Of a DNA stretch of 55,696 bases, positions 1 to 33,029 are shown one piece after another. Numbering within the stretch: the first letter of the stretch is position 1; every line of letters starts with the position of its first letter. Below the pieces are notes generated by a model, which did no database searches, was not told the DNA's origin, and worked only from the letters and a program-made list of their open reading frames with translations. Location of the stretch: assembly GCA_020719775.1 (NCBI GenBank), contig DYPS01000005.1, forward strand, positions 1 to 55,696, read 5' to 3'. A program made the translations under genes and the position numbers. Source of the stretch: Desulfosporosinus sp. (GTDB taxonomy: Bacteria > Campylobacterota > Campylobacteria > Campylobacterales > Arcobacteraceae).

Positions 1-50
1 CCAACCCCAACCCCAACCCCAACCCCAACCCCAACCCCAACCCCAACCCC
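1..50. repeat. C4A2 telomere repeat (left chromosome end)
   Basis: About eight uninterrupted CCCCAA units open the window, the C-rich strand of a C4A2/G4T2 telomere as in oligohymenophorean ciliates. This marks a true macronuclear chromosome end. The repeat is homogeneous, without the C3A3 variants seen in Paramecium. Only 39 bp of unique AT-rich sequence (51-89) separates it from the stop codon of the first gene. Confidence 0.97.
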
Positions 51-9938: not shown

Positions 9939-12368
9939 ATGGGAAAAAAAACTAAGTCCAAGCAAAGACTAGATACCTATTATCATTACGCTAAGCAACA
10001 GGGCTATCGCTCCAGAGCTGCCTACAAACTTATTCAACTCAACCGCAAATACAATTTCCTAAACACATCAACTGTACTCATCGATCTGTGTGCTGCACCT
10101 GGAGGATGGATGCAGGTAGCCAGCGAATGCATGCCCATGAACTCCACTATTGTAGGAGTAGATCTAGATCCCATTAAAAGAGTCCCTGGAACCAAAAGTT
10201 TCATAGGAGATATCACAACCCAGACATGTTATGATCAACTTCGTAAAGAAACTCATGGACAGAAATGTGATGTTGTTCTCAATGATGGTGCTCCTAATGT
10301 TGGAGCCAACTGGAGTAAAGACGCTTACTCTCAGAGTGAACTTGTGCTTGCTGCTTTAAAATTAGCTTGCTCTTTCTTAAGATAGGGAGGTTACTTTATC
10401 ACAAAAGTATTCAGATCCACAGATTTCCAGTCATTGATGTGGGTGTTCAAAAAATTCTTTGAGAGAGTTGAGGCAACTAAACCTAAAGCATCTCGTTTTT
10501 CCTCAGCTTAAATTTTTGTTGTTTGTGCTGGTTATCGTGCTCCTAGTTTTATCGATTAAAAATTATTCGATGCCAAATTTGTATTTCAGGATACTGAGGC
10601 AGATCATTTTCATGAACAATTAGCTGGAGAAATAACAAGTATTGATAAGTTGCTTGAAGATAGAAGAAAGAGAGGTGGTTATGAAGACAATGCCCCTATG
10701 CATCTTTATAAATAAATTTCACTTTCAAACTTTATATAATCGGAGACTCCTCTGCTTGTGTTTGCAAAATATAATAAGATTACTGTGACTCCCGAGGAAA
10801 AAACAAAATATTTTACTCTTGTGAAGAATGTTCCAAGAGATCTTGACTCATTATTTGAAGATTTGAGAGTCATTGGTAAGAGATAAATAGGATCAATTCT
10901 AAAATGGCGCAGTAAAATCAACCATTTGTTTGTTCAATAAAAAATTACAAAATAAAAAAAGGAAGCCGAAACAAGCAAAATGTAAATTTAAGGACAAGAA
11001 AATTAAGAAGATTCGGAAGTACAACTTGAAAAAGAAGTATTACACTCTCGAAGAAGAGAAATTAAGCATTTAAAATAAAAGGAAGATAAAAGAAGTGAGT
11101 TAATGATCAAATCTCAAGTAGCAAATAAGCAACATCACGAGAGTTAAGATTAATTTGGAGAAAATGTTGAAGGTGTATTTGAAGGAGATATTGAGGAGCT
11201 TTAATATCAAGAAGAACCTGAAGAAGTCAAACCAAAAGATTAAAAGAAAAAAATGGCATCCTTCAGTCAAAAAGAGCTTTAGAAAAATTTAGAAGAAATA
11301 TATGAAGCCAGAAAACAAGTTAAAAATGATAGGGAACAACAAATGAGAGAAGCTAGAGAGGCTAGAAAAGATAGAAGAAATGAACGTTTTTAGACAAAAG
11401 AAAGAAAATTGAAATGCAGAAAAATAGGTGCTGATCCTGAATTAATTGGCAAAACTTAGGGCTATGATGAAAACGAATAAGAATAAGAAGAAGTTGAACA
11501 TGAATTTAAATAAATTACATTCAAAAACCCTTTAGCTGATATGGATGATGACGATCTTTATATTTCAGATAATGAAGAAGAGATCAACGAAGAGGCTGTA
11601 GACCCCAATGAAAAGATTGATGGTGAACTGTCCGACGATGATGCTTATGTTATCCCTAAGCCATTATCTGATATGTAGAAAAGAAGGCAACAATTGAAGA
11701 AAAATACTTTGAAAAAGTAAAAAAAATTAAAAAAGGACATTGTAGAGGGAGAGGATGTTGGAGATCAGATCTAAATTGTGAAGCACAAACATATGTAAGA
11801 TTACAATATTGATGAGTTGGCTGAAACTCTTGCAATTGGTAAGAAAATGCTTAGAAATAGATCGAGAGATGATATTCTTGATTCTTCTTACAGTCGTTTC
11901 AATTTTGAAGATCATGATGATTTGCCCAAGTGGTTCTCTGAAGATGAGAAGAAACATAACTTCAAGAAAACACCAATTACTAAATAATAGTTTCAACAAT
12001 AGAAGCAAAGACTTATTGCTATTAATGCAAGAGTTCCTAAGAAAATTTTGGAAGCTAAAGTTAGAAGAAAAATGAGAATCCAAAAAAAACTTAAAAAGAC
12101 TCAGAAACAAGCTGAAGTTGTAATGAATCAAGATGGTGTGACTGAGTATAACAAACTACGTCAGATCAGTAAAATGTATGATAAATCAAAGCGTGAATTG
12201 AAGGACAACAAAAAATATATTGTCAGTTCTAAGAGTCGCACAGGTGCTGGTAAAGACAGTCGAAATGTAAAGCATGTGGATAGTCGTATGAAGAAAGATA
12301 AACGTTCATTGAAGGTAAAGAAGACTAGGCAAGTCAAGCGTACTCATAAGAGAAGAGGAAAATTCTGA
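9939..12368 (+). CDS. SPB1: SPB1/FTSJ3 pre-rRNA 2'-O-methyltransferase
   Basis: An 809-residue nucleolar methyltransferase for 60S ribosome assembly. In yeast, Spb1 methylates the ribose of a guanosine in the peptidyl-transferase A-loop. The FtsJ domain occupies roughly residues 1-230: [10 protein letters not shown], the SAM-binding [24 protein letters not shown], and [11 protein letters not shown] carrying the catalytic Lys. The final catalytic Glu sits in SSAEIFVVC and is written TAA (10,509-10,511), which is key evidence for TAA = Glu. An acidic and basic middle follows, then the Spb1 C-terminal domain: [25 protein letters not shown] and a terminal [10 protein letters not shown]. There is no intron. 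The start ATG gives the family's usual N-terminus MGKKTK. Confidence is very high. Confidence 0.97.
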
Positions 12369-12474: not shown

Positions 12475-15400
12475 ATGAAAGAATTAGTTATTAATTACTA
12501 CTTCTTTGCCTTATTACTAATTTTTGGGCCCATTGTAATATCCCAACAAGTTTCCTCAAATTATTTCACATCAGGTACTCTTCATTGTAGTTAGATCAGG
12601 TCACTCTTTGGCACGGTAATACGATTGTTCCCCATCAATCCATCGTACCCTCCTATCAATTTACTTACACTATTCAACAAGCCCCTTCTCAGATAAATAA
12701 CATCCAAGCAGCCCTTACCGGCCTAAGTATTAGTAACGGCAACACTATTAATTTTTTAGTAAGCATTCTTTATGTTCCTTCTGCGAATGGAACCTTCATA
12801 ATCGATTTCAATCCCATGAATACATCAATTTATTATTCTATATCTTTTTCATTGATTGCCTTGACTGCACTTCCTAATAACTTCATTCACTCTCATTTGT
12901 AAAGTAAGTCGTTTATTATTACTTAGATTTAAATATATTGAATCTTAATAATATTGCAAGACCGGTTGGGTCAAATAGTTAAAGCTTTACAATTACATCA
13001 CCTTTACAGTTCACTCATCTTGCATTTGAAGTTCGAGTATTTATCAACTGCTTTCATGTGGTTTACGGATCTGGAGAAGTAGGGATATCTACAAATGGTC
13101 AAGGTGTTCCTACTTTAAATGCTTTTACATTTACTTTTGTGATTGGAGTGAATCCTGGTGTGGTTGTGAATGCTTGCTATGTTGTTGTGCTTATTGCTGA
13201 TATTACACAACTTCATGCTCAGCGGCACATGTATTTTGTTGCTGACAATTTCCAAATTTCAGATAATTATTTTATAAACCCAAATATTGCTCTAAGCACT
13301 CATACATCATCAAATTTCGGCATTTCCCCTTTATTTGGTCCAATTTTCAGCCGTAACTGCACTATTGCCCTTTATAATATTCATTTTGTAGCTGATATAT
13401 CAATAAAAACATTATTGTACGATTATAATTCAGCATTTGGTTTTATTAATGTTCAATCGATTGGAGGAGGTGGATTATTAGCCTATTATCAAACTTTCTG
13501 TGTTATAGACTGCACATAAACTGCTTTTTATTACTCTGTGACTAACAAATGTTAATTCTGTTCCAATTACATAACTTACTGTGAAACTTGCCTCAACGAA
13601 AATATATGCACAAATTGCGGAATTAACACATTCTTTGATCCACTCTATCGACTATGTCACTGTGTAATCGGCATCCGAGTTATAGGAGGATGTACAGACA
13701 TCGTAGGATGCACTTCTATCAACCCTTCAAATAAATGTTTACACTGTTCAACAGGTTATACCCTATCTTCAAACAATAGATCATGCCTGTGTTCAACTGG
13801 TTACACGATGGTAACAGGAATATGTATAAATGTGTTGGGATGTATTGCAGCTGTAAATTTACATAATTCAACTCGTTGTTTGACATGTAATCAGTCTATG
13901 AACATGATGATGGATTTTAATAGATCTAATTGTGTTTGTAGGGATGGTTATAGTTTTAAAAATGGAATGTGTGTAACTATTTGTGGGAATGGGTTTTTGT
14001 TTTTGCAGGAGCAGTGTGATGATGGAAATAATCAGGATGGAGACGGGTGTTCTTCTCTTTGTGAGATTGAGACTCATTATGAGTGTGTCAATAGTAATTC
14101 TGGATCTTTATCGGTTTGTTCCTATAAAAGCGAAGATGCAACTATTTCTTTGATATAAGTATATCGAGATAATCAATAAAATGCTGGGTATTTCGTGTTC
14201 CAAATAGTGCCTGCTATCTTAAATTTCAACAAAATGGATTTTACCTCGGCTGTCACATTTGGCTGCGCTTCCAACTTTACACAGCCTGAAGTTTATTACA
14301 AGGATGGAATATTGAAAATTAAAATTATATTTCTTCAGGACATTTAAGATAAACTGGCTAATGTCACCATTAACTTCAATCAGACTATCTTCAAGCATTC
14401 GCCAATTTCTGACATTTTTATAATTAAATCAATGAACTCTCCTCTTCGTATTTTCAAAAAATTTCCATAATATGAATTTTTCAAATCTTTTTTCACTGGT
14501 ATATCTTTTGTGGCTTTACTCCTCTTCTTTTTAGGCTCCTTGGCTCATAAAATGATTGGCATTGAGACTATTCACGTATTCCAGATGCTATTCTTTCTTT
14601 GCATATACTAAGTTTGCTATGCTGATTTATTTTTAAGTTCTGTTCAAACTCTCAGGTATACATCAAACTACTCTGATATATTTTTTGACTAGCTGAAAGG
14701 TATGGATGAAAGTGGAATATACTAAAGTTTGCGATTTGCCTTTACTTTTATTCAAAATTACTATGTTGTAGGAAGTGCCTAACTTATAGTGTTCATTTTG
14801 CTACTCACCAACTTCATCTACTATAAGTTGAAATCTGATAAATAGGCAAGTTAGACGACTTAATAATAGATTAAACAGATGAACAGGTCATACAAAATCA
14901 GAAGGGACATTATGACTTCAGTTCTAATGGTGCCTTTGGTTCTTGGATACTTCTATCAATGTTTATTTGGAGTGTAGGCTCAAAATTTTAGAAAATTGAG
15001 TAATAAATAGCATTTTGTTTACATTGTAAATTCTCTGTTGTTAGTAGGCTTTGTTTTTCTGTCTGCATTCTATTTGATCAACTAAATTGTTGCTAATTTA
15101 AAGAACTCTGGTCTAAACAAACATTATTAAATAAAATAGAGATACATTTTAATATACATTTTCAATTTTTTAGTGAACCTTATGATTCTAAATATTTCCT
15201 AGTTCATACAATGGGATATCATTATTTTGCTAGTTTGGAATATTCTTTATTTCGCAGTGCTGATTATCTACAAACCCTATGTTCATAACTTACACAATTT
15301 CAGTATTGCCTTCAATAACTTTGTTGTTATTTACTGGATGGGTGTGCTTCTTTACCAAGATTTATCTAAAAATGGATTAAGTGAGGATCAAAAATTTATT

Positions 15401-15889
15401 GTGCTAACCATTTTGCAATCATTATTAGCGATTGTTTGTCTATTGTCGTTGGTCAGAATTTTATTGTAGATTGTTGAGAATGGTACTCAAGTACATAAGA
15501 TTAACTAGTATTATGATGAGATTGATTTAAATTATAGAAGAATTTTTAAAAGATCAAGAGAAGTGAGAAGGAAACAGCGGAAATAATTAAATAACGATCT
15601 GTAAAATATCAACAGGTATCGATTGAAAGCTCAGGAAGATATTTAGAAAAGACAAGAAGAAAACAAAATCAATTGCGAACGAGTTGGGAAAAATTTAAGT
15701 ATACTTTTCCCAAAGAGACACCTTCGACATGGCTTAAAACAAAACAAATCAAAATAATTAATTTAATAGGATAACCAACAGCATTTAGAGAGCTACAAAA
15801 CTAAGAAAGATTAGTAAATATAAAAGCTTAAATTGAAATTGAGAGAAGATCTGGTGAGATACCGACAAAAACTACTTTCAAACGATTGA
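12475..15889 (+). CDS. Cysteine-rich (DUF4215-type) multi-transmembrane surface protein
   Basis: A 1,123-residue protein of a type common in ciliates. It has a signal peptide (YYFFALLLIFGPIVISQQ), a beta-rich ectodomain, and a block of CxxC repeats (CSNYITYCETCLNENICTNC, CLHCSTGY). A DUF4215/Myxococcus-type disulfide repeat follows (CGNGFLF...CDDGNNQDGDGCSSLC near 13,980-14,070). After a membrane-proximal segment come about nine hydrophobic helices between 14,480 and 15,470, then a basic, Lys/Arg-rich cytoplasmic tail of about 140 residues. Two introns lie in the 5' part (20 and 23 nt). Family knowledge suggests an extracellular sensor coupled to a membrane bundle. Whether it is a channel or receptor cannot be told here. 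Confidence 0.85.
12575..12594 (+). other. 20-nt intron (DUF4215-type gene)
   Basis: Sense GTACTCTTCATTGTAGTTAG, just after the signal-peptide exon. Removal shifts into the frame reading DQVTLWHGNTIVPHQ. Confidence 0.88.
12904..12926 (+). other. 23-nt intron (DUF4215-type gene)
   Basis: Begins GTAAGTCG and ends ACTTAG. Retention would hit an in-frame TGA at once; removal joins HL to DLNILNLNNIARPVG. Confidence 0.88.
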
Positions 15890-15968: not shown

Positions 15969-18377
15969 TCAAATGTAGTAAAGATATTTGTGCATACCGG
16001 TCTCTTCGCTATCCTTGTTTATGTATTGCCCAATGAACATTCCCAATTTTTTTGCGTATTGTAGCATTCCTGGTACCTTGATTGCTCCTGTCCAGTTCAT
16101 GTAGTTGAAACATTGAGTGAATAACAGTTATTAAATTACTCCTTATTCTATCAAAGAATCACTGTAAACTACCTTATAGTAGGTTGGACGGACTGTTCCT
16201 CTATTGCAGTGTTGGGCAATCAGATAAAATTAAAAGTTATTTCCTACTGCTTCGCTGTTGACGAGTGTCCCTGAACCTGGGTTTGAAACTTAACCATTTC
16301 GGTCATTAAAGAATTTAATGCTGGCTTGCTTATCGACAATGATGTAAACGAGTTTAATTGGAGTATAGGATATCGAGACTGCTCTAAATATTTCCTTGAT
16401 TTCAGTAACATCTGCTTGAACTGAAAGAGTTAAATCATATTTGCCGCTTCCATTTTTGAGGATGATGACATCAGTTGGTGGAGTTTGATTTGCCATAATG
16501 TATTAGTTCAAGCATTCAAAGATTATCTCCTTCATTTTGATGTGATTGTCATGTTTATTCTGAAGGAAATAACTTGAATAGAAGGAAGAAAATTATTTAT
16601 TTGTGTTTGAGCAGAATGAAACTACTGTTTTATTTTTGTTCTAGTTGTCACCATAGCTTTAAATTCCTATTATTAGCACTCCTGTATGAAGAATTTTAGT
16701 GGGGACACGAGGAACCCAAAGTTTGTTTCCAACCTTGGCAGCAATTTGCAATAGAATTTTGGTGACAATGCTTTGAGCTCCTTTCTTTTGAAGAGTTGTC
16801 GTTACACATACTTGACTATTCTTAGCAATGTCAACTTTAAGCATGAATCTTTTGAGATTTTTGTACTCCTTTTTGAAGTATGGCGGAATGATGAACCAAA
16901 AAATGTTGGCCGAACCATTTTAACATTATCTTCTAACTGTTGATTCGATTGTATTCATTGACTGTTTGGTGTCTGAATAATTGATTGGATAAGGGATGAG
17001 CTTGTGCTGTAAGTTTAAGCTTCTACTTGTTGATTCAAAAATTGTTCTGGTTGGGCTCCAATCAAATTCGCTTGGATAGATGACAGCAACTTTGAGACTG
17101 ATGTCAGGTGAATAGAGAGGTTTGTTGAAGAGCATGAAGTTGGCCACCTTGTTTCTTTCAATTTTATCTTTATCACCAAGTTGTAGTTCTGGAGAATTTA
17201 ATATTTTTCCATTAATTACAGTAGGATTTTTATTGAATTATATACCCAATTTTTCGGCAACTAGATCAGGTCCAAAGTTTTAAAGTGCAGAATTATTGAA
17301 TTTTTGAAATAGCCCCTAAATTTATCCTAATTTTTGCTAAGGCTGAACAATAGTTGTTTCACTGATTTCTCTTCTTTTCCTCTCATCAAAATTATCAGGA
17401 AGTCCACTCATCAAAAGTAGTTCTGGAATCAAAACAATTATTTCTTAAGGCTTATCAGTTGATTTTTTCTTTTTATCTGACTTAACTTGAACCAGAGGCT
17501 GTCTTTTGCTTTAAATGCTGATATTGTATACGTCTTTGTAGTATTCAATGATATTTATGTCCTTTTTACCATCATTAAATTTATAAGACTCAAGGCAAAT
17601 ATCAAAAAGAACGTTGCTAATTTCATAATACTTGTTTTTGCCATAATTGGCCATGACTTGTTTGCCGATCAATTATTCTAAAACAACTGCTCTTTTTTAT
17701 TGTTTGGAAAGAGCACTGTTGATTTTATAGACTTGATTAATTACATCAAGAACTGAGTCTTTTCTTACAATTTTTACAGCTGAATCGACTTTGAAGTATA
17801 AACCAGTTTATAAAAGTGAAAAACTGCTAGAATAACCTTTAAAAATAGTTACTTGGGCTCCATTAAGATTAACTTTAGTTTTTGAATCAAAGTATTTCTT
17901 GCTTCTTCCGATTTCAGTGTAGTCCAGCAGATGAAAGAAATTTTTTATCATATTGTTAAGGAAAGAATATACAATACCAGATTTTTGTTTTTCAGGAGAG
18001 TAAATATCAGAAAGAATTACTTGCTTCACTACTTTAAGGAAGACTTGATAAGCTGTTGATTAGTGCTCCAATCTCAAATTCAATTCATCACCTTTTGGAA
18101 GTTGCTGTAATTTGGTGGCAAATAAAGTTCTTCCAGAAATAACATAGGGGCCAATCAGTCTTTAGATGATGTTGCGGTTTATCATCAGCATTGATCTAAG
18201 CTTTTTTCCATTTTATCTTGGTATTTATGGGAGAGTTCTTAGAGTGTAGATATATATGTTTGCATCTTCTTTGAAGTTGACTTTGAAGAGGTTTGTTGCA
18301 AGCTGTGTCTTGGTGCATCTGTCGAGGTGAGGACCTTTGACTCTTTCAGGAAGTTGTTCGATAGAGTTAAAACTCAT
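15969..18377 (-). CDS. PIWI-clade Argonaute, slicer residues degenerate (copy A)
   Basis: An 802-residue, intron-free PIWI protein with N, PAZ, MID and PIWI regions. The MID domain keeps the guide 5'-phosphate pocket pattern Y-K-Q-K (EYKNLKRF...SQVCVTTTL). The PIWI domain shows SIVTKILLQIAAKVGNKLW and ends QYAKKLGMFIGQYI...LYYI. The slicer tetrad (D-E-D-H) reads E-E-N-K: GIESYGD instead of GIDVYHD (codon TAA, 16,659-16,661), the second Glu kept in MKEII, KNG instead of RDG, and K instead of H in QYAHK. Guide binding is therefore likely but cleavage unlikely. Copy B lies upstream on the same strand. Ciliate PIWIs serve small-RNA-guided DNA elimination or, as with Tetrahymena Twi12, RNA processing; which applies here is unknown. 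Confidence 0.93.
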
Positions 18378-18697
18378 GATTTTGATTATAGAGTTTGGCT
18401 CTTGGATTTAAGGGAATTTCCAATTTGCTTGTTTATTGACTTTGACTTCAAAGTAATTGGGTAAAATCGATTTTGATAAAGTTTATAATAATAAGATAGT
18501 AAAGTATAAATGCAATTGACCCAAAATTAACTTCAATGCTAACCTTAAAAAATAAATGATATTTTATAATCATCATCTTCTAATTTTCCTATTAATTAAC
18601 ATCAAATGCTTTCTTCATGAGTTTACAAGGACAAAGAGCAAGCATTGAATACATGAACTTTTCAAAAATAAATTATGTGCAAATCATTTATCTGAGC
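18378..18697. promoter_or_regulatory. Spacer between the two PIWI genes
   Basis: These 320 bp of AT-rich DNA separate the stop of PIWI copy B from the start of copy A and must hold B's terminator and A's promoter. I see no ORF and no clear motif, so separate promoters are inferred only from the spacing. Confidence 0.4.
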
Positions 18698-21076
18698 TCA
18701 AATGTAATACAGAGTATTTGTGATTTCCTGAGCTTGTGAATCTTGGTTGATGTACTGTCCTACAAAGCTTGCCAACTTCTTCGCATATTGCAATGTTCCT
18801 GGTACTCTTACAGGTCCCATCCAATTAGCATAATTGAAGCATTCATTGAAAATTAGTTCCTGTAAAACTCCCTCTTCCATATTTGATGTCGTATATATGA
18901 CTTTGTAATAAGTTGGTTTGGCTGTTCCTCTGTTGCAGTTTTGGGCCACCATGTAGAAATCATAGTACTAACTTACCACACCGGAGTTAATCAAAGAACC
19001 AAAAAATGGATTGACAGTTTAGCCATTTTTTTACAGATAAAACTGTTGTTTTGAATTTTTATCGACAACGATGTAAGTCAATTTCGGTGCAGGGTTGGTT
19101 CCAGCAAACAACTGAAGCTGATCTTAAACATCTTTAACCTCAGCTCTTAACATGACTCCTATATCATTATTACATGTTCCATTCTTGAGTATGATAACTT
19201 CTCCTGGCAATCTTTTAGTCTCCGTAAAATATTTATTCATACAATCAATGATAACTGGTTTCAATTTGATGGCATTATCGCTTTCTTGAATACAATAGTT
19301 GGAGTTGAAAGATGATAGTTATTGATCAACAGTTGAGCAGTATGCTACCACAGTCATTCCTTTTCTTGCAGAATCTTTATAATTTTATATGCTGATCATC
19401 AGTACTCCATAGTTTTTTAGCTATTTTGATAGTTTTGGAACCCAGAGTTTATTACCTATCTTAGCCGCCATCTGAAGCAGTATCTTTGTGAAAATAGAGT
19501 TGAAATTTTTCTTTGCTAGTGTTGATGTGAGACTGAATTGTGTTGGTTTTTGATAAGGTCCATTAAGAGTTATTTTTTTGATGGTTTTATACAATTGTTT
19601 AGAATTGGCTGGAAGTATGAACCAATAAATGTTGCAATTATGTCTTTCTTTCATTAGTAAAGAAGTGATATTTGTTTATATTTTTCTTGTATCGTTGAAA
19701 TTGAAAGAGCAGCATTTTAGGAAATATCTAATTGCAATATTTCTGCAGGTAGAATTCATGATATTTTTGATACTGTTTGACTCAAAATCTTCAGTTGCGA
19801 TGAGGCATATTTTTAGTTCAATTGATGTATCAAACAGAGGTTTATTGTAAAGAATGAACCCTCCTACTTTACTTTCCTAGATATTCTATTTACCACCTAG
19901 TTGAAGGATTGGGTTGTTCAACTTCTTGGCTTCAATTTTGCAGAGATTTGTTGATATTTTAATGCCTAGTTTTTCAGCAACTGAGCTTATATTACAACTG
20001 GCTTGTCCATTATTTAGATTCGACATTAAATTTTAAAGCTATTTTTGTTTGTTGTTTGGAGGTATTATGGTTTTTTAACTCACTTATCTCCTCTTGCGTT
20101 CATCAAAATTTGCAGGTAAACCACTCATGAGTAACAATTATGGTACAATAATAATATTTTCTTTCTTCTTTTTTTCCTTTCCGGTTGAAGCCTTTAGAAG
20201 TGGCTGTTTCAAATTTTTGATTGTAATTTGATAATTATTTAGGTAATACTGTATTAAATTGGTGGAAACTCCATTGAGCTAGAAGATATAATTTTCCAAA
20301 TTGACATCGAATATAACCTCTTCTATGAGATAGCAAATATTTTTTCCATAATTAGCCATCACCATTTTATTTATTAGTTCGTCTTAAATCAGCATTCTCT
20401 TTTAGGATTTGCTTAGCTCATTGTTTGTGGAGTATATTTTGTTTATTAGCTCGAGCACTGATTCTGTACGAATTATTTTAGTAATTGGGTTTATTTGAAG
20501 GAAAAGACCCTTTTAGAGAAGATTAAAACGAGTAGAATATCCTGAAAAAAGCATGACTCCAGCATTTCTTAAAACCATTCTTTTGCTTGGATCAAAGTAA
20601 TTTCGAGTTTTTCCCATCTATGTAAAGTCCAGCTAAGCCATAAAATTCTTGATTAGATTGTTCAAGAAAAGATAGACTGGTCCACTCAATGTTTTGTCTT
20701 GACTGGAGATGTTCTTCAAATCAATAGATCTCACTTTTTTTACTGTCATTTAGTAAGTGGGATTAGAACCAATTTAGAAAGACACTTCATCTGTATTTAG
20801 TTTATTGCTGGTTGTAAACAAAGTCTTGCCTGAAGAAACAAAGGGACCAATAACTGCTTCAATCTATCTGCGGGAATTTTTGAGAATATTCTTCAGCAAT
20901 GAATTGTTTTTAGCATATACTTAAGGTTTGAGTCTAAAAGCGATAATGCTGACCATCTGTTATGACTCCAGCTGAACCTTAAAGAGATTGCTGGTGAGAG
21001 AGATGCTGCTGCACCTATTTAGGTGAGAGCCTCGCTTACGAGAGGGAAGGCTGATGATGGAGAAGTTGGACTACAT
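18698..21076 (-). CDS. PIWI-clade Argonaute, slicer residues degenerate (copy B)
   Basis: A 792-residue, intron-free paralog of copy A, starting MESNFSIISLP at ATG 21,076. It shares the N-terminal layout (RCSSISLTSNLFKV versus RCTKTQLATNLFKV in A), the motif LLLMSGLP.NFDERKRR before the MID region, and the C-terminal LYYI. The MID pocket is kept (LYKTIKK...PTQFSLTSTLAKK). The slicer tetrad is more eroded than in A: SIENYKD (TAA at 19,385-19,387), no Glu at the second position (LKPVIIDC), KNG for RDG (19,191-19,193), and K for H in QYAKKLASFVGQ. The two copies have diverged well beyond recent duplicates yet share the same substitutions at three catalytic sites, so the loss probably preceded the duplication. 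Intact length implies selection. Confidence 0.93.
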
Positions 21077-21480
21077 CTTAATTAATGATAAAAGCGATAG
21101 CCGGTAGCATTTATAGTGAGGTACCAATTTTTGAGGGCGATATAGTATAGAGATTGGGGATATAAACACAGTATTAAATTGTATAATTATTAGATAAGTA
21201 AAATAAAGAATTAGGTCCAAGCAAAAGAAACACATTGAAGATGTGAGATATGATTAGATGATGATAGAGTATGATATCCTCATAATTTTAATCTAATTTA
21301 TTTGTTTAATGTTTGGGACTTGCTTACAATTTATAGGGAGCATGCATTTGTGATTACCAGCAATGAATAATAAATCCAAAAGTCAAGACAACTATACTAA
21401 GTTGATGTTGGTAAATAGTTAGACATATTTGAGGATGATAATTTCAACTGACCTATTTGGTTTATCAAAAGTATAAAATA
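21077..21480. other. Intergenic spacer upstream of PIWI copy B
   Basis: This is 404 bp of AT-rich sequence between the coiled-coil gene's stop and PIWI B's start, both on the minus strand. No coding frame or repeat stands out. It should contain PIWI B's promoter. Confidence 0.4.
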
Positions 21481-24317: not shown

Positions 24318-27300
24318 ATGCCAGGTGAATAACAAAATACGTTAAAGTGGGGCGACATTATTCGTATACACGGAGTCAACCTCACCAAAGAAAAGCAATC
24401 ATAGTCTATGGGTCTAATTATATCGAAGGGGTAACAATTCTTTAATGCAGATTCACTGATACGAACATCTATTATCAAAAATATGAGATCATCTCTGAGG
24501 ACAAAGTCAACAATAAAGAGGCTGAGGGTTTTGAAACTGTCAATTTTTACAGGGAATCGCTTTATCAGGTCATGCCTCATAGCAATTTCGATATTCATGA
24601 TGAACTCAGTGATCCCAACATCTCGTAACTTGCATATTATTTAGTCCTCAACATCGTGAAGGTCTCAAGAACAAAGCAAAAGGATAAATCGAGAGTTTGA
24701 ACAACAATCTCAATCTCAAAAAGGGACAAAACGTACCTTATGGAGCCGAAGCAATCTTCAGACATGTGGAGTCTGATTCTTACTTGAGAGGTCTACTAAA
24801 AGCAGCGGATACAGGAGATGGTGCTTTCACAATTGAAGTTTCGCCTTTACCTTCTTCTCAGATTATTTGGAAAATCGACTCTCATCGAAGTTATCAGCAT
24901 GATGGAGATCCGATCTATTTTGACGATGAGTTACTGATTTATCATGTGAGTACAGACTGCTTCATGAACTTCGCTTAAAATAATAAGCCTATCTACTTAG
25001 ACACTAAATTCCCTTTAGAAGTAATGCCTTAAAACCATAAAGGATGGGAGTATGTCCACAGTCGCCCTCAGATTAAAACTCCAAATAAGGATCGTATTTC
25101 AATAATAAATGAAAACAAGAGCAAGTGTCTATGGAAATTTATTGAACACTGCACCTACGATCAATATGTCAATCGTGATAAAATAAAATCTCATGATATT
25201 GTGTTCTTTGAGCACACTAAAAATAAAGGTTGCATTTCATCTTCACTTAATCAGGATCTTTTCTACCTCAAGGAAACTGTTGATCAAAAACAGAGTTATG
25301 AAAGCTTTTGGGAGCTTATTCCCAAGGAAGTCAATGAACTTGGACCTGAAACTTCTAACGACTTTTATGCAAGAAATATTGTTACTGGTAAGTATCTTTC
25401 TTACAATGGTTATCGTGTCAGGATTACATCCAAATAAGTGATTGAAGGAGGAGGATTTTTGAGTAAAGGATTAATTAACTTGCTCTGCAGTGATGATGAC
25501 AAAATGCTTGATAGAGGATCTCTTATTCCAAAAGATTTGAACAAGCCTGAAATTATTAAATTTTCTGAAAATTTGTATGATTTGTTCTAGCTGATTGAAG
25601 TGCAAGAATTGACAGAGGATAGTTTCTTGATCGTTAAGGTTGAATAATAAACTATGATGAACATTCAGTTTGTTATATCTTCTCATGAACATTTGGTAAA
25701 GTTTTTGGATCGCTTCAATAGTCATATGATAAAGGAAACTATGGCTCGCAAACTCAAGCCAAACAGCAAAGAACTTATTATTATATATGAGTTTCAATTA
25801 TTGATGCTATAAGAACTTTAAAATATTCGTACTATCCTTGAGATGCTAGCTGGTAAAATTTATGGTACAAGTTATGATGAAATTGTATCTTCAGGTAACA
25901 CACCTAATCCTATGATTCAAAAGATATTGGTTGAAACTGGAACGACTGAATTACTTATTGAAATTATTTATCAATTGTTTGTTCCTTTTGTATTCATTGA
26001 GTAAAATCCTGAAGCTTCTCCTGATAGAGCTCAAAGAGTTCGTTTGACTTAAATATTTGAAAGAGTTTACAAACTATTAGAAAAGATTGTGGTTGGAAAT
26101 TAAAAAAATAAATTTTATCTGTCGAGATGGGTTGATCTCTTCCTTTCTCACTCTAACGCTATCAACAGAGAGTATATTCAATAATGTTTGGTAGGAATTC
26201 TTCAAAATAATCCCAAGGCTATTGAAGCAACTATTACTGAGGCAAAAATATCAGATTTGATCAAATGTTTTTATGCTGAAGCAGACAAGAATCGTTCTGG
26301 ATAGCTGACGACTAAATACTTGAGATTGTTTTCAACTTTCATTAAATGTGAAGATCGTGTTTTAAAGCAAAATCAAACAATCATTCTTGACAATTTCTTC
26401 AAGGACAAAGATAATAAATATTGTTATCGCTTCAATATTAGGCCAAAAGAAGATGAAGTTTAAATACCCAATGATCCTTTTAGCAAAATCAGAACTAAAA
26501 GAGTAGATATCTCTTTGGACAAGCAGGACTTCAGCACTATTCCTAAATATTTCAAAGACTGGGGACCAAAGTGGAACTATTTCCTATACTTTGTCAACTT
26601 GTTGGCTGATGTTTGTATGGATAAAAATAACAATGCTATTGAAAATGTTTCAGCCTTAGTATCTCTTCAAACTGTGACTATTATTCTCTTTGATCCTGAC
26701 ATTCATAAGCTGAATCAATAAATTAGAGAGGCCAATGAAACTCACCTTAAAGAAAAGGGAGTATTGAAATATCCTATTGCCAATGTTCATGAGCCATTTG
26801 TGAGAATTGCTCACTATGTTTACATTTACAACACTAAGTTTACTCAAATTAAGACTATTAAAAATATTAGTAGATGGTATCGCCATCAAGGAGAAGAGAA
26901 GGGAGTAATTCGAAGATAAGATATCAATAGAACAAAAAGAGCTTTTGAAGGTGAAAAAGAATAAGAATAGAAATTCTATTTGAATAGTATTCTCAAGTAT
27001 ATCGAATCTTTCATTGAAGAATGCAATCAATAAAATGCAAATTTAGATATTCTTCACACTGTTCTTTTGTTATTCAAAGAAACAGTTCTATTAGGACTGT
27101 GGGAAAGCATATCTCAGTTTAGAAAACTTATTCCACTTTTGATTATGCGCATTACTAAGATTGAAAATAGTAAGATCTTCTACATTACTGGAGAAATAAA
27201 AAAATCTAAGACTCCTGTTTAAATTGTCAACTTGAATAAAGACGGACTAAGCTTTAATAGACCATAAATTGGACTCAACATCAATTGCAAAATTAAAGCT

Positions 27301-30300
27301 ACTTAAATATTTAAATACATAAATGAGCTCGAAATCGATATTAGGCTTCGTTACATGATGAACTTTTTCAAAGGACTTTATGAAGCAACATAAAGTTTTG
27401 AAGACTACAACAAGCAATAAAACTAAATTGAATTAGAAGATGAAAGCATCAAAGCTAGAAATCAAACTGCAAGAGGAGAATTCCTTAAATCAGAATATGC
27501 AACCATTCTAGGTTAAGTCAAAAAGATAAGTGAGGATCAAGATATTATGCTCAAAGAAAACATTTGGTGCAATAAATTTAAAGAACTAACTCCTTTCGAA
27601 TACAATGGGCCTGTAGAAGACATGAGCAAGGATCGATATCTCTTCCAAGGAGATAGACAGGCTATGAATCCTTAAAATAATTTTGATTCAATGGTCCTCG
27701 CACTATTCTAATTGCCCGTCTACAAGAATGATAAATTGTTGAGCTCAGCTTTAAGAATGTTGAGACTTATTTTCGAACAGAGAAAAGATTTGATTGACCA
27801 GTTCAAGGGAATTTTAGTTTGTGGAAAAGGAAATTTGCTTGAAGTTTATATGACTTTGAAATACATGCGTGAAAAATTTGAAATGTTAACAAATCAAAAT
27901 ATTCTTAAGGTTACAAAAGCAAGAGATGAAGCTTTTTCATACTATATCGAAAAGCCATATGATTCAATGTAAAAAACAAATGCTAAGCGATCAGGAATAC
28001 TCCAAGATTTATTTTTCCTTTCTAGAACTCTCAAGTAGGATATCAATCTAAAAAATATTGAGTCTTTAATGTTTGTTTAAGAATCAATGTTCAATAAAAA
28101 CATTGTTTTCAATTATCTCAACTAAAAGGAACGAAATAACAAGTTGTTCCAAGCTGTGAACATTGCTGAGGGAATATATTTACCTCTTATGAGCTACATC
28201 AAACTTGTCGGTGATAATCCAGTCTCTGATATTCATCGAAAGATACTCTTCGCTATTTATCAATATTTGGCTTTACTTTGCTTTAACAATCTTTAGGCCA
28301 AGCAGAAACTTATGGTTTACGTACCTATTATTCTTCCTCACTTGAAACGTAGAGTTGGAGCATCTAATTTCCTTTATCATGTGTCTCTTAACAATAAAAT
28401 GCTTATTAGCAATAATCGATTGGTTAAGCAAATTATTAATGGAGCACTTGAAGCTTGTGTGGAGCTTGATCGTGAGGAAATGATAATGAATCCAAACATT
28501 TTAAAGGATTAACGTGAAGCTGTTGTTCACAATAATTTTGAAAAGAGTCAGATTCTCTTTGCACTGAGAGGCATTCTTCTATTAAATGATTAAGGTTTCC
28601 GTATCAATCAGGACAATTTAATGAATCGCTTCCAAGATAATAAATTCAAAAAACTTATCTACAAAAATAAAGTTGAATTCACAAGTAAAAAAGATAATTT
28701 TGCTCTTAGTCCTTAAGAAAGTTATGTCGCATGTTTCTTTGAACTGTTTTCAGTCATCGTATAGAGCAAAAATTTCATAAACATCGGAAAATTATAGAAT
28801 ATTCATCCTTATACATACTGCCTTGATTGTTTGAAGAACACCAATCGGTGGCAGATTCGCAGGTCAATTCGTGCCTACATAAATCGTCTTTATTATGTCA
28901 ATAAGGACCGTGATGTCTTCCTGTTTGAAGAATTCATTCGTAAGTAATTCAAAATTATAAATGATGAGCTTGAAGATTTAATTTACTTGCATCGTAATAA
29001 ATTAATTAACGATGAGATTGCTATTCCCAATGGAATTAGATTCAAATATGCTCAAAGTGAAATCTTTTAGATGATTCTAGAAATATTCATTACCATTGAA
29101 GAGATGCTTTTGAAACCTGAGTTCATCAAGGTTTTGAAGAGAGAAATCTCAAAGGAAGAGAAAAAATCAGAAAATCAACGTGAAATTCATGATCAATTCA
29201 TCAAGCTCCTCCATCACATAGGTTGTCTCAACATTCTTTACCCAACTAAGAGTATCATTTCAGCTTTCATTAAATAAATTTACACTCATATCGAGGGAGT
29301 CATGCTCAATTTCAGCGACACCTATCTTTAAAAGCAAACCAGTCAATAGGGTGATGCTGTGGCTGAAGAGGCTGATGATCTCGGAAATGATCCTGACAAA
29401 AAAAACTATATTTATGATCACTCTAAAAGTTTCTTCAGAAATCTTGCCTGTATGATAAGAGATATAAAGGCTAAGGATAAAAAAGAGGAATTAAAACAAA
29501 AAATGGCAAAAAGACAAAACAAATAAGGCTCTCCTGACTAGCTTAAAAAATTGTATATTGATATCCTCTTCCAATGTCAAGGTTAAAATTTAAAGCCTAT
29601 TGTTTCCAAAAAGTTTAGGGAAGTATCTTCATCACTTTACAAGCCTCATATTCAAACTGCTAACTCCAGAATATTCAAGGTTATTGCCAAGCCCACTTTG
29701 ACTGAAAATGAATAAAATATTGAATTGAACAGAAGATTGTCTATTGTGAAGGAAATCATTGATGATTCTCCAGTTTTTAGAAAATTACGTGAGGATGAGT
29801 TTTTTAAGTTGGTTACTACTCTAACAAAAATTGACAGTACCAGTAGAAGTTACTATGAAAAAATGTGGTTGCAAGTTGAATAGAAAAAATCGATCCCAGT
29901 AGTTTCTCTACGAGAAATATTTACTAAATCTTTCAAGCTGATAATGGATAATCATGAAACTATTGAAGATGAAGAAAAAATATTTATTATCAGGATTGCT
30001 AGATGTTATATCACTGAGGCTGTCGAGGGCAATCAAACCTATAAACTTTCAGTTGATAAATGGAATGCAGATTATTACAGTGGTGAAGAAGAACTTCCAC
30101 CTGGAGAGACTGAGAGTGAGCTTGTAAAACGTCAAAACCTTATTGAGGAGTGCGGAGGATCTGAATTTATAAGATCAATCTTCAAATATAATGCAAATAA
30201 TCTCGATACTAAGAGATAACTTCTCAATGAAACTCTATTGCTGGGTATCGCTTATCTTTTCAATGGTAACACTAAGTGTCAAGAATCATTGTTGAAAGTA

Positions 30301-33029
30301 TTACTTGCTGATCCTGAGAATCTCATGCTTATCAGCATCAAAAGACTTATCACTAATATCGGTAATCTTCTTATTGAAATCCGTAAGACGAAGGAAGCTG
30401 GGAAATTGAGAAAGTTTGCTTATAGTATTGTGGATACATTTGATTACTTTGATGTGAAGGGAAATATAATTTTGAAGGAGTTCGGAAATTCAGGATTTGA
30501 TAAGTTCTAGGCTCGAACTGAAAAAAATTATGAGTTAGCATTGTGCAGAATATTCCGTTTCTTGCAGCTATTTTGTGAAAACGGTAATGTAGATATGAAA
30601 AATTTCTTATTAGCTCAAACAAATGATAAAGAACGTAAACAGCGCAAAACAACTTCCATTAATTTTATTGAAACAACTACTCTTTTGCTAAGAAAGCTGT
30701 TTAAAATAATGAATGACAAGGTAGTTAACATCCCTCAAACACTATTAGACTTCATCAACGAAATAACTCAGCTTCCTTGCATTTAAAATCAAATTGCCTT
30801 TATGAAGAGTACATTCTTCGAAGATCTTTCTTATCTTGCAGATTTCTTTATGAGTGAGGAAAATCTTATTAACCGCAAATTTAATATTGCTCCATAAAAT
30901 TAAGACTAACCTGTTTGCTAACTTCGGGGTATTTATCAAAAAGGTATTGATTTGGCTCTTTGCAACTTTGAAGGTAACGATGATTCACTCATATGGGAAT
31001 TCCTTTCCAAATGTCAACCTAAATTTTTATGGGTTGTTATCAAGCAAAATTTGATGAAGATATTGATCTAAAAGGCAGGTGATTTTGGAATTGAAAAACA
31101 AGATGATCAACCTTAAAGCAAATTTGAGGCTGATCTGTTGGCTAAGTTTAACATTGACACCATAAAAGAATATTTAGTTTAGCAGGAAAAATCAGGAGCC
31201 ATGCTTAACGATTAAATAATCAATATTCTATCTGTACTTTACATTTTGAAAAAAATAGAAGTTTACTATTAGAAGAGAATGGAAATTGCCTATTACGATA
31301 AGGATAAACCAAACCTTGAATAAAAGGAAAAAGCAGATAAGGCTCACAGTTTCAAGGAAGATCTCATTAAATACGTAAAAGATAAAGAAGGCTATCACCA
31401 CATTTAAGATTTTTTGAATGAGTTCAATGGTTTAATTCTTTCAATTGAAATCAGTTCTCATAATGGTAAAGAGAAAGGATTCCAATATATCTACTTCCCC
31501 AAACATCCAGTTTTCTCTTATTTAGCTGCCGATACCAAAGACAGTATTATGATGGGAGTCAAACGTGAAACTCAAAGAGATAAGCAAATAACTTTGCTGC
31601 AAGTAAGAGAATAAATTTATGATGAAATAGAGCTGAACTATGGTTTGAAGTATGGATAAATCACTATTCCAATCATAAACAAAAATGTTCCATTCCAAAT
31701 CACCTCTTAATATGCTGAAAAAGTTAGAAAATTGGCAAGATATATTTCCTTCTTCATTTGTTTCTTGCTTCTCTTCTTTATTGCCGTCGATCATGACACT
31801 GAAGAAATGACATCCACTTTTACTTACACCAGTATCTTCACTTAATTTTTGCTTAGAGTAGCAGCTGCCGCCCAGTTGCTGACGACTGTTTGGTTTATCT
31901 TTATATGGCTTAAACTACGTAAACCTTTAGCGATGAAAAAATTTGATACTGCAGGAGGCTAGTAGAAAAAATAGATGAATACTTAGCAGTAGACCAAGAA
32001 AAAGGAATATAGTTAATTATAAGGTTCGGATTTACTGCTGGGTTACTACAAGTCAATGCTGAATGTGTTCCAACCATATGCTGCAAAAGTGAAAGATGTA
32101 ATCATGCAAAACTACTTCATTAGGAATATTATCATTAGCACTTATTCACTTTCTCAGTATGAGTCTGGTTTCCTTTCGATTTTAATGTTTGTTGTTGCAA
32201 CTTTCTTGGGTAATTTTGTGGGAGTCGAATGGTATACAATCCATCTCTTTGATATCTTCACTGATATATCTGAATTGACAAACATCTTTAAAGCTATTCT
32301 GAACAATTTCAAAAAGCTAGCATTATTATCTTTCTTGGCGGGAGTGTTCATTCTTGTGTTCAACGTTATATCTCTTAACACTTACACCCCAGTTATTTGG
32401 GAAGAAGAACTGCCAGCCGAAGCTTGTGAAGATATAATCGGTTGTGTTTTGTAATTATATACTAGTGGTGCAATTGGCGATGATATGGAGTAGTTTGCTC
32501 TTTGGAGATTCGCTTTTGATATTGTGTATGTTGTGTTCATGGAGATGTTGTTCCAAAACATTGTGGGAGGTATTATGATCGATGCTTTCTCAGAACTGAA
32601 AGAATCTGACGAAGCAAGAGACGAAGATAAGAGCAATCTGTGTTATATATGTGGTATGGATAAACCTGCGGTATAAATTTTATTATTTAGATGTAAAGAT
32701 CAGGCTCAACATTCGAAAAACATATCCAAAAGCACTATCTTTGGCACTATCTTTATTATCTCTACGTTCTTAGACTCAAGAATCCAACTGATTTTACTGG
32801 TCTTGAGTACGAAATCGACAAGAAAGTGAATTAGTAAGATGTGTAATGGTTCCCTGCAATGGGCGAAGGTGACACTGAAGGAGAAGTCTAAAAAGTGTTA
32901 GGAGAACTTTAGACTGATATGAATGAGGTATTCCGAGTGCTAGATGAATCAGTGGGCAATAGTAAATCTACATTTGAATAAGCAAAGAAGGTAGTGGACA
33001 AGATTAAGAATAAAGAAAGGGCAGTTTGA
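24318..33029 (+). CDS. IP3-receptor/ryanodine-receptor family calcium-release channel
   Basis: A channel of about 2,883 residues, close to the family size. The N-terminal region (LKWGDIIRIHG...FYRESLYQVMPHS) matches the IP3R beta-trefoil. MIR-type repeats follow (GAEAIFRHVESDSYL; VFFEHTKNKGCISSS; NDFYARNIVTGKYLSYNGY), then a very long helical RIH-type solenoid to about residue 2,450. The C-terminal membrane domain carries several helices and a pore loop TSGAIGDDME (32,461-32,490), the counterpart of GGGVGD/GGGIGD. The pore helix leads to FENIVGGIMIDAFSEL, as in IP3R (NLIFGVIIDTFADL). Beyond it are the zinc-binding CYICG...HIQKHYLWH and the family-typical WFPAM before a short coiled coil. Three 20-nt introns. 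It probably releases Ca2+ from the ER or alveolar sacs. Ligand choice (IP3 or not) cannot be read here. Confidence 0.97.
24431..24450 (+). other. 20-nt intron (calcium-channel gene)
   Basis: Sense GTAACAATTCTTTAATGCAG. Removal joins GLIISKG to FTDTNIYYQKYEII in the N-terminal trefoil. Confidence 0.9.
24625..24644 (+). other. 20-nt intron (calcium-channel gene)
   Basis: Sense GTAACTTGCATATTATTTAG. Removal joins DPNIS to PQHREGLKNKAKG, which leads into the MIR region. Confidence 0.9.
32671..32690 (+). other. 20-nt intron (calcium-channel gene)
   Basis: Sense GTATAAATTTTATTATTTAG. Removal restores the CxxC...HxxxxH linker of IP3 receptors (CYICGMDKPA then STFEKHIQKHYLWHYL). Confidence 0.95.

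Follow-up and report, generated by a model that had tools for sequence, protein, structure and literature searches.

Two tandem genes for predicted PIWI-clade Argonautes lacking the slicer tetrad, from a peritrich ciliate chromosome in a bacterial assembly

What might two neighbouring Argonaute genes do when neither encodes a single residue of the slicer tetrad? The question is raised by genes A and B, which lie in a window of 55,696 bases (the whole stretch of DNA analysed, contig C183). The answer we prefer, at a probability of roughly 60%, is that guides would address the two proteins to targets which they bind, and at which they recruit other factors, without cutting; silencing, or the selection or protection of small RNAs, would be the likeliest setting, judging from the protein sequences and from analogy with known Piwis.

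The assembly to which the window belongs (2.85 Mb, 228 contigs) is filed as a prokaryote genome. The window's genes are of ciliate type, with long frames that contain many in-frame TAA and TAG codons and with TGA as the sole stop, and the window opens with telomere repeats:

1..50, no strand: C4A2 telomere repeats, left end of the macronuclear chromosome

C4A2 repeats stand at both ends of other contigs of the same assembly. TGA-only long frames, the telomeric start and the two-ended telomeric contigs elsewhere identify the window as a ciliate macronuclear chromosome; the ciliate is a peritrich (of the bell-animalcule type), mixed into a bacterial assembly. The same mixture is seen in the assembly's 56 protein-kinase matches, the majority of which have in-frame TAA or TAG and which are scattered across many contigs. 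The assembly (G000) has a listed completeness of 100% and a contamination of 0.32%, yet many ciliate macronuclear contigs are inside it, for example C8, C29, C31, C48, C49, C59, C76 and C78. Several contigs with C4A2 telomeres at both ends resemble complete chromosomes of about 6-40 kb, which suggests that macronuclear chromosomes are short in this peritrich. A search with a eukaryote-specific 18S rRNA pattern gave no match.

The genetic code had to be settled before the active sites could be read, since in A and B alike TAA encodes the position of the first catalytic Asp. Under table 6, the usual code of ciliates, TAR would be Gln. In an alignment of A with B, the partner of TAR is Glu in ten cases, Lys in seven and Gln in two, and CAR is paired with Gln in 16. 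Among the assembly's kinases, the APE motif has its invariant Glu encoded by TAA four times, by TAG once and by GAR five times, and the Glu position of the HRD-K-P-E-N motif is frequently TAA; the invariant HRD Lys is AAR in 18 of 18 cases and never TAR. TAR also occupies the conserved Glu of the SAEIF and KEL motifs in a neighbouring gene:

9939-12368, plus strand: SPB1, a real gene with conserved motifs SAEIF and KEL

From the placement of TAR in the A/B alignment, at invariant kinase residues and at conserved Glu of SPB1, UAA and UAG both encode Glu in this organism. Table 6 was rejected, as TAR sits at conserved Glu in A/B and in the kinases; it would have misread the first catalytic position of both proteins as Gln, so that the reading of the active site depends on the code. 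The code of Oligohymenophorea sp. PL0344, in which UAA is Lys and UAG is Glu (PMC10553269), was likewise rejected, because TAA falls four times on the invariant kinase Glu and never on the HRD Lys. Assignment of both UAA and UAG to Glu, as found here in nuclear genes, is the one made for peritrichs (PMC11687900, PMC10553269).

Under this code the two genes read as follows, each on the evidence of its open frame, Pfam and profile comparison:

15969..18377, minus strand: gene A, PIWI-clade Argonaute by profile score, 802 aa, single exon, TGA stop
18698..21076, minus strand: gene B, PIWI-clade Argonaute by profile score, 792 aa, single exon, TGA stop

They are in tandem, separated by a gap of 320 bp. 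Both match Pfam Piwi (E 3e-47 and 9e-48) and both contain PAZ over the Pfam cut-off, in the expected order, PAZ then PIWI. A single profile of the A/B pair scores PIWIL1 at 263 bits vs 85-91 bits for human AGO2/AGO1, which by sequence places A and B in the PIWI clade, closer than to the AGO clade. The two proteins are 45% identical (46% in the PIWI domain alone) and each is about 24% identical to animal PIWIs. Each frame, of about 800 codons, is free of TGA before its terminal stop, where about 14 would be expected by composition, and pN between them (0.37) is far under a pS of 0.78 that is itself saturated; A and B are therefore real, old genes under purifying constraint. A reading of the window from its letters and open frames (the sequence-only reading) had described two full-length, intron-free genes at this place, and the open frames, the Piwi and PAZ matches and the lack of internal TGA bear it out. 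Loss of catalytic residues can signal decay, but the intact frames, the low level of replacement relative to synonymous change, the intact ends of both genes and the guide-pocket residues retained in both (below) make it extremely improbable that A and B have lately become pseudogenes or escaped selection. Upstream of the homologous start, gene B has a further 89 open codons in frame (21077-21343, minus strand), and its N-terminus may be longer. Scans of genomic and viral contigs and of 399 genomes from the assembly's bacterial order, together with tblastn against plasmids and phages, turned up no relatives beyond this assembly, as expected for prokaryote and virus collections.

The slicer centre was read from a MAFFT alignment of five sequences (A, B and animal PIWIs), with HMMER alignments alongside. 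The positions that correspond to the catalytic residues, all placed by alignment, are:

16659..16661, minus strand: A Glu573 (TAA codon), position of the first catalytic Asp
16545..16550, minus strand: A Asp610-Asn611, glutamate-finger position, with a one-residue ambiguity
16452..16454, minus strand: A Asn642 (KNG), position of the second catalytic Asp
16050..16052, minus strand: A Lys776, position of the catalytic His
19385..19387, minus strand: B Glu564 (TAA codon), position of the first catalytic Asp
19274..19279, minus strand: B Asp600-Asn601, glutamate-finger position
19181..19183, minus strand: B Asn632 (KNG), position of the second catalytic Asp
18779..18781, minus strand: B Lys766, position of the catalytic His

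The animal tetrad D-E-D-H thus aligns with E-N-N-K in both proteins, or E-[D/N]-N-K when the finger ambiguity is included: none of four tetrad residues is kept, and neither copy has the first Asp, the finger Glu, the Asp of RDG or the His by which slicer competence is judged. That the first Asp was replaced (GIESYGD in A, SIENYKD in B), that RDG had become KNG and that Lys had taken the place of His in both copies had all been claimed by the sequence-only reading, and alignment to animal PIWIs agrees on each count, although the Glu letters in the first motif were right only because TAA is Glu here. On the glutamate finger its claim held for B, where loss was proposed, and failed for A, where the finger was said to survive in MKEII; Asp-Asn occupies the finger position in both copies. 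MAFFT aligns the finger Glu with Asn611 in A and Asn601 in B, and the HMMER alignments put the same Asn or its neighbour there, whereas an ungapped count of 32 residues back from the second Asp position arrives at Asp610 and Asp600. A one-residue deletion near the finger in both copies accounts for the two readings, and Glu appears under neither. Glu617 of the MKEII motif aligns with Leu/Val, several residues C-terminal of the finger, and lies inside a predicted helix in a low-confidence AlphaFold2 model. AlphaFold2, run on a two-row alignment, reached a pLDDT of 36 at full length and 45 for MID-PIWI; the order of secondary-structure elements alone was used, as weak support.

By their sequences, then, A and B are most likely catalytically dead. 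In Tetrahymena Twi1p the single change D526N (Asp to Asn) yields a slicer-dead protein that retains RNA duplexes (PMC4331008); since one such substitution suffices there and four positions differ here, cleavage by A and B would not be expected, and we infer that they do not slice. An altered site might still cut RNA if the Glu/Asp/Asn/Lys set coordinated metal differently. That A and B carry the same replacements, in part conservative ones (Asp to Glu), would suit such a site, and as E, D and K are ionisable some residual activity is formally conceivable; but the Twi1p mutant loses slicing through a single ligand, here none of the four positions is unchanged, and the finger has been shortened by one residue, which together leave continued cutting very improbable.

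The part of the protein that would hold a guide has fared otherwise. The residues of the MID 5'-phosphate pocket, placed by alignment, are:

16734..16865, minus strand: A Tyr505, Lys509, Gln522, Lys548
19460..19591, minus strand: B Tyr496, Lys500, Gln513, Lys539

Alignment to animal PIWIs confirms the earlier report of a Y-K-Q-K pocket in both copies and, with Lys540 (A numbering) included, all five pocket residues are kept in each. By comparison, of the columns invariant among the animal proteins elsewhere in these domains, both copies keep only 12 of 41 in MID and 27 of 90 in PIWI (about 30%). With the 5' pocket and PAZ retained, A and B would be expected to load a small guide RNA. The intact pocket, the lost slicer centre and the purifying constraint on both frames are points on which the interpretation made from the letters is supported.

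The same replacements are present at the four tetrad positions of A and B. Gene conversion between them is unlikely as the source of this identity: no stretch of identical DNA exceeds 11 nt, and 160 conserved residues have the same codon in both genes, with 146 expected from codon usage. Common replacements in well-diverged copies that bear no sign of recent conversion favour a single loss, and we infer that the slicer was lost once, ahead of the duplication that gave A and B, whose sisterhood is presumed; loss before duplication was also what the sequence-only reading had proposed, and the data fit it. At 46% identity across the PIWI domain, four common residues are not decisive on this point.

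How might such proteins act? The MID pocket would hold the 5' phosphate of a small RNA, and the loaded protein would pair with target RNA; with the four D-E-D-H positions replaced in both copies (E, D/N, N, K) the target would not be cleaved, and passenger strands would have to leave without slicing. Partner proteins would be recruited at the guide-addressed targets, and the likeliest outcome would be co-transcriptional or chromatin-level silencing, or the selection or protection of a class of small RNAs. The silencing role is a guess from precedent. In the transgene silencing of Paramecium, PTIWI13 is the one Piwi described as a potential slicer (PMC4937312), from which PTIWI08 and PTIWI14 are taken to be non-slicers; both the accumulation of siRNA and silencing at the chromatin level depend on PTIWI14 (PMC4937312). 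Nuclear Piwi of animals needs no slicer activity to repress transcription (review PMC7792047). PTIWI08 and PTIWI14, which act in transgene-induced chromatin-level silencing, are ohnologues whereas A and B are a tandem pair, and we liken them by description only. The best solved relatives by sequence are the animal PIWIs (PIWIL1/MIWI, PIWIL2/MILI and Ephydatia Piwi-A), which share the PAZ-MID-PIWI layout and the Y-K-Q-K pocket but, unlike A and B, keep the tetrad. Stylonychia PIWI1 is, like A and B, a ciliate PIWI-clade protein. Loss of the tetrad alone does not fix the pathway. An RdRP search of the assembly gave no match, and its control searches were equally silent; an RNase III search gave one match, most likely bacterial since its frame is without in-frame stops.

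A second ciliate precedent is Tetrahymena Twi12, a Piwi whose role lies outside DNA elimination, also likened by description only: it is macronuclear, needed for growth, and associates with 3' fragments of tRNA and with the exonuclease Xrn2 (review PMC6562869). A and B, with a guide pocket and no slicer centre, could in the same manner have RNA fragments as cargo and serve an RNA-processing complex as activator or scaffold instead of silencing genes, a reading that we consider unlikely. The proximity of SPB1 is no evidence for it. The distance of 3.6 kb noted earlier is correct, but the link to A and B, then raised as speculative, finds no support, because another frame intervenes and SPB1 is on the opposite strand from the pair:

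13229-15889, plus strand: 886-aa ORF, membrane-protein-like, cysteine-rich, DUF4215, between SPB1 and gene A

It is a long shot that E-D/N-N-K, instead of being a product of decay, is a fixed, repurposed centre, serving for example a permanently clamped guide-target state or other chemistry, with the tandem pair splitting one ancestral non-slicer role in peritrichs.

Whatever their pathway, A and B would on their sequences constitute a new slicer-less Piwi pair from a poorly sampled ciliate group, non-slicing ciliate Piwis being already known. No small-RNA study of peritrichs came up in a limited search of the literature. Tandem Piwis without any slicer residue extend slicer loss to the peritrich branch, and provide two candidates for asking whether ciliates inherited guide-only Piwi function from an ancestor or acquired it repeatedly.

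Elsewhere in the window, one uninterrupted frame, about 2,600 aa long, encodes an ion channel of the ryanodine/IP3-receptor superfamily, which matches RyR in its C-terminal channel region (E 5e-18 for the whole protein):

24964-32829, plus strand: ryanodine/IP3-receptor-superfamily ion channel
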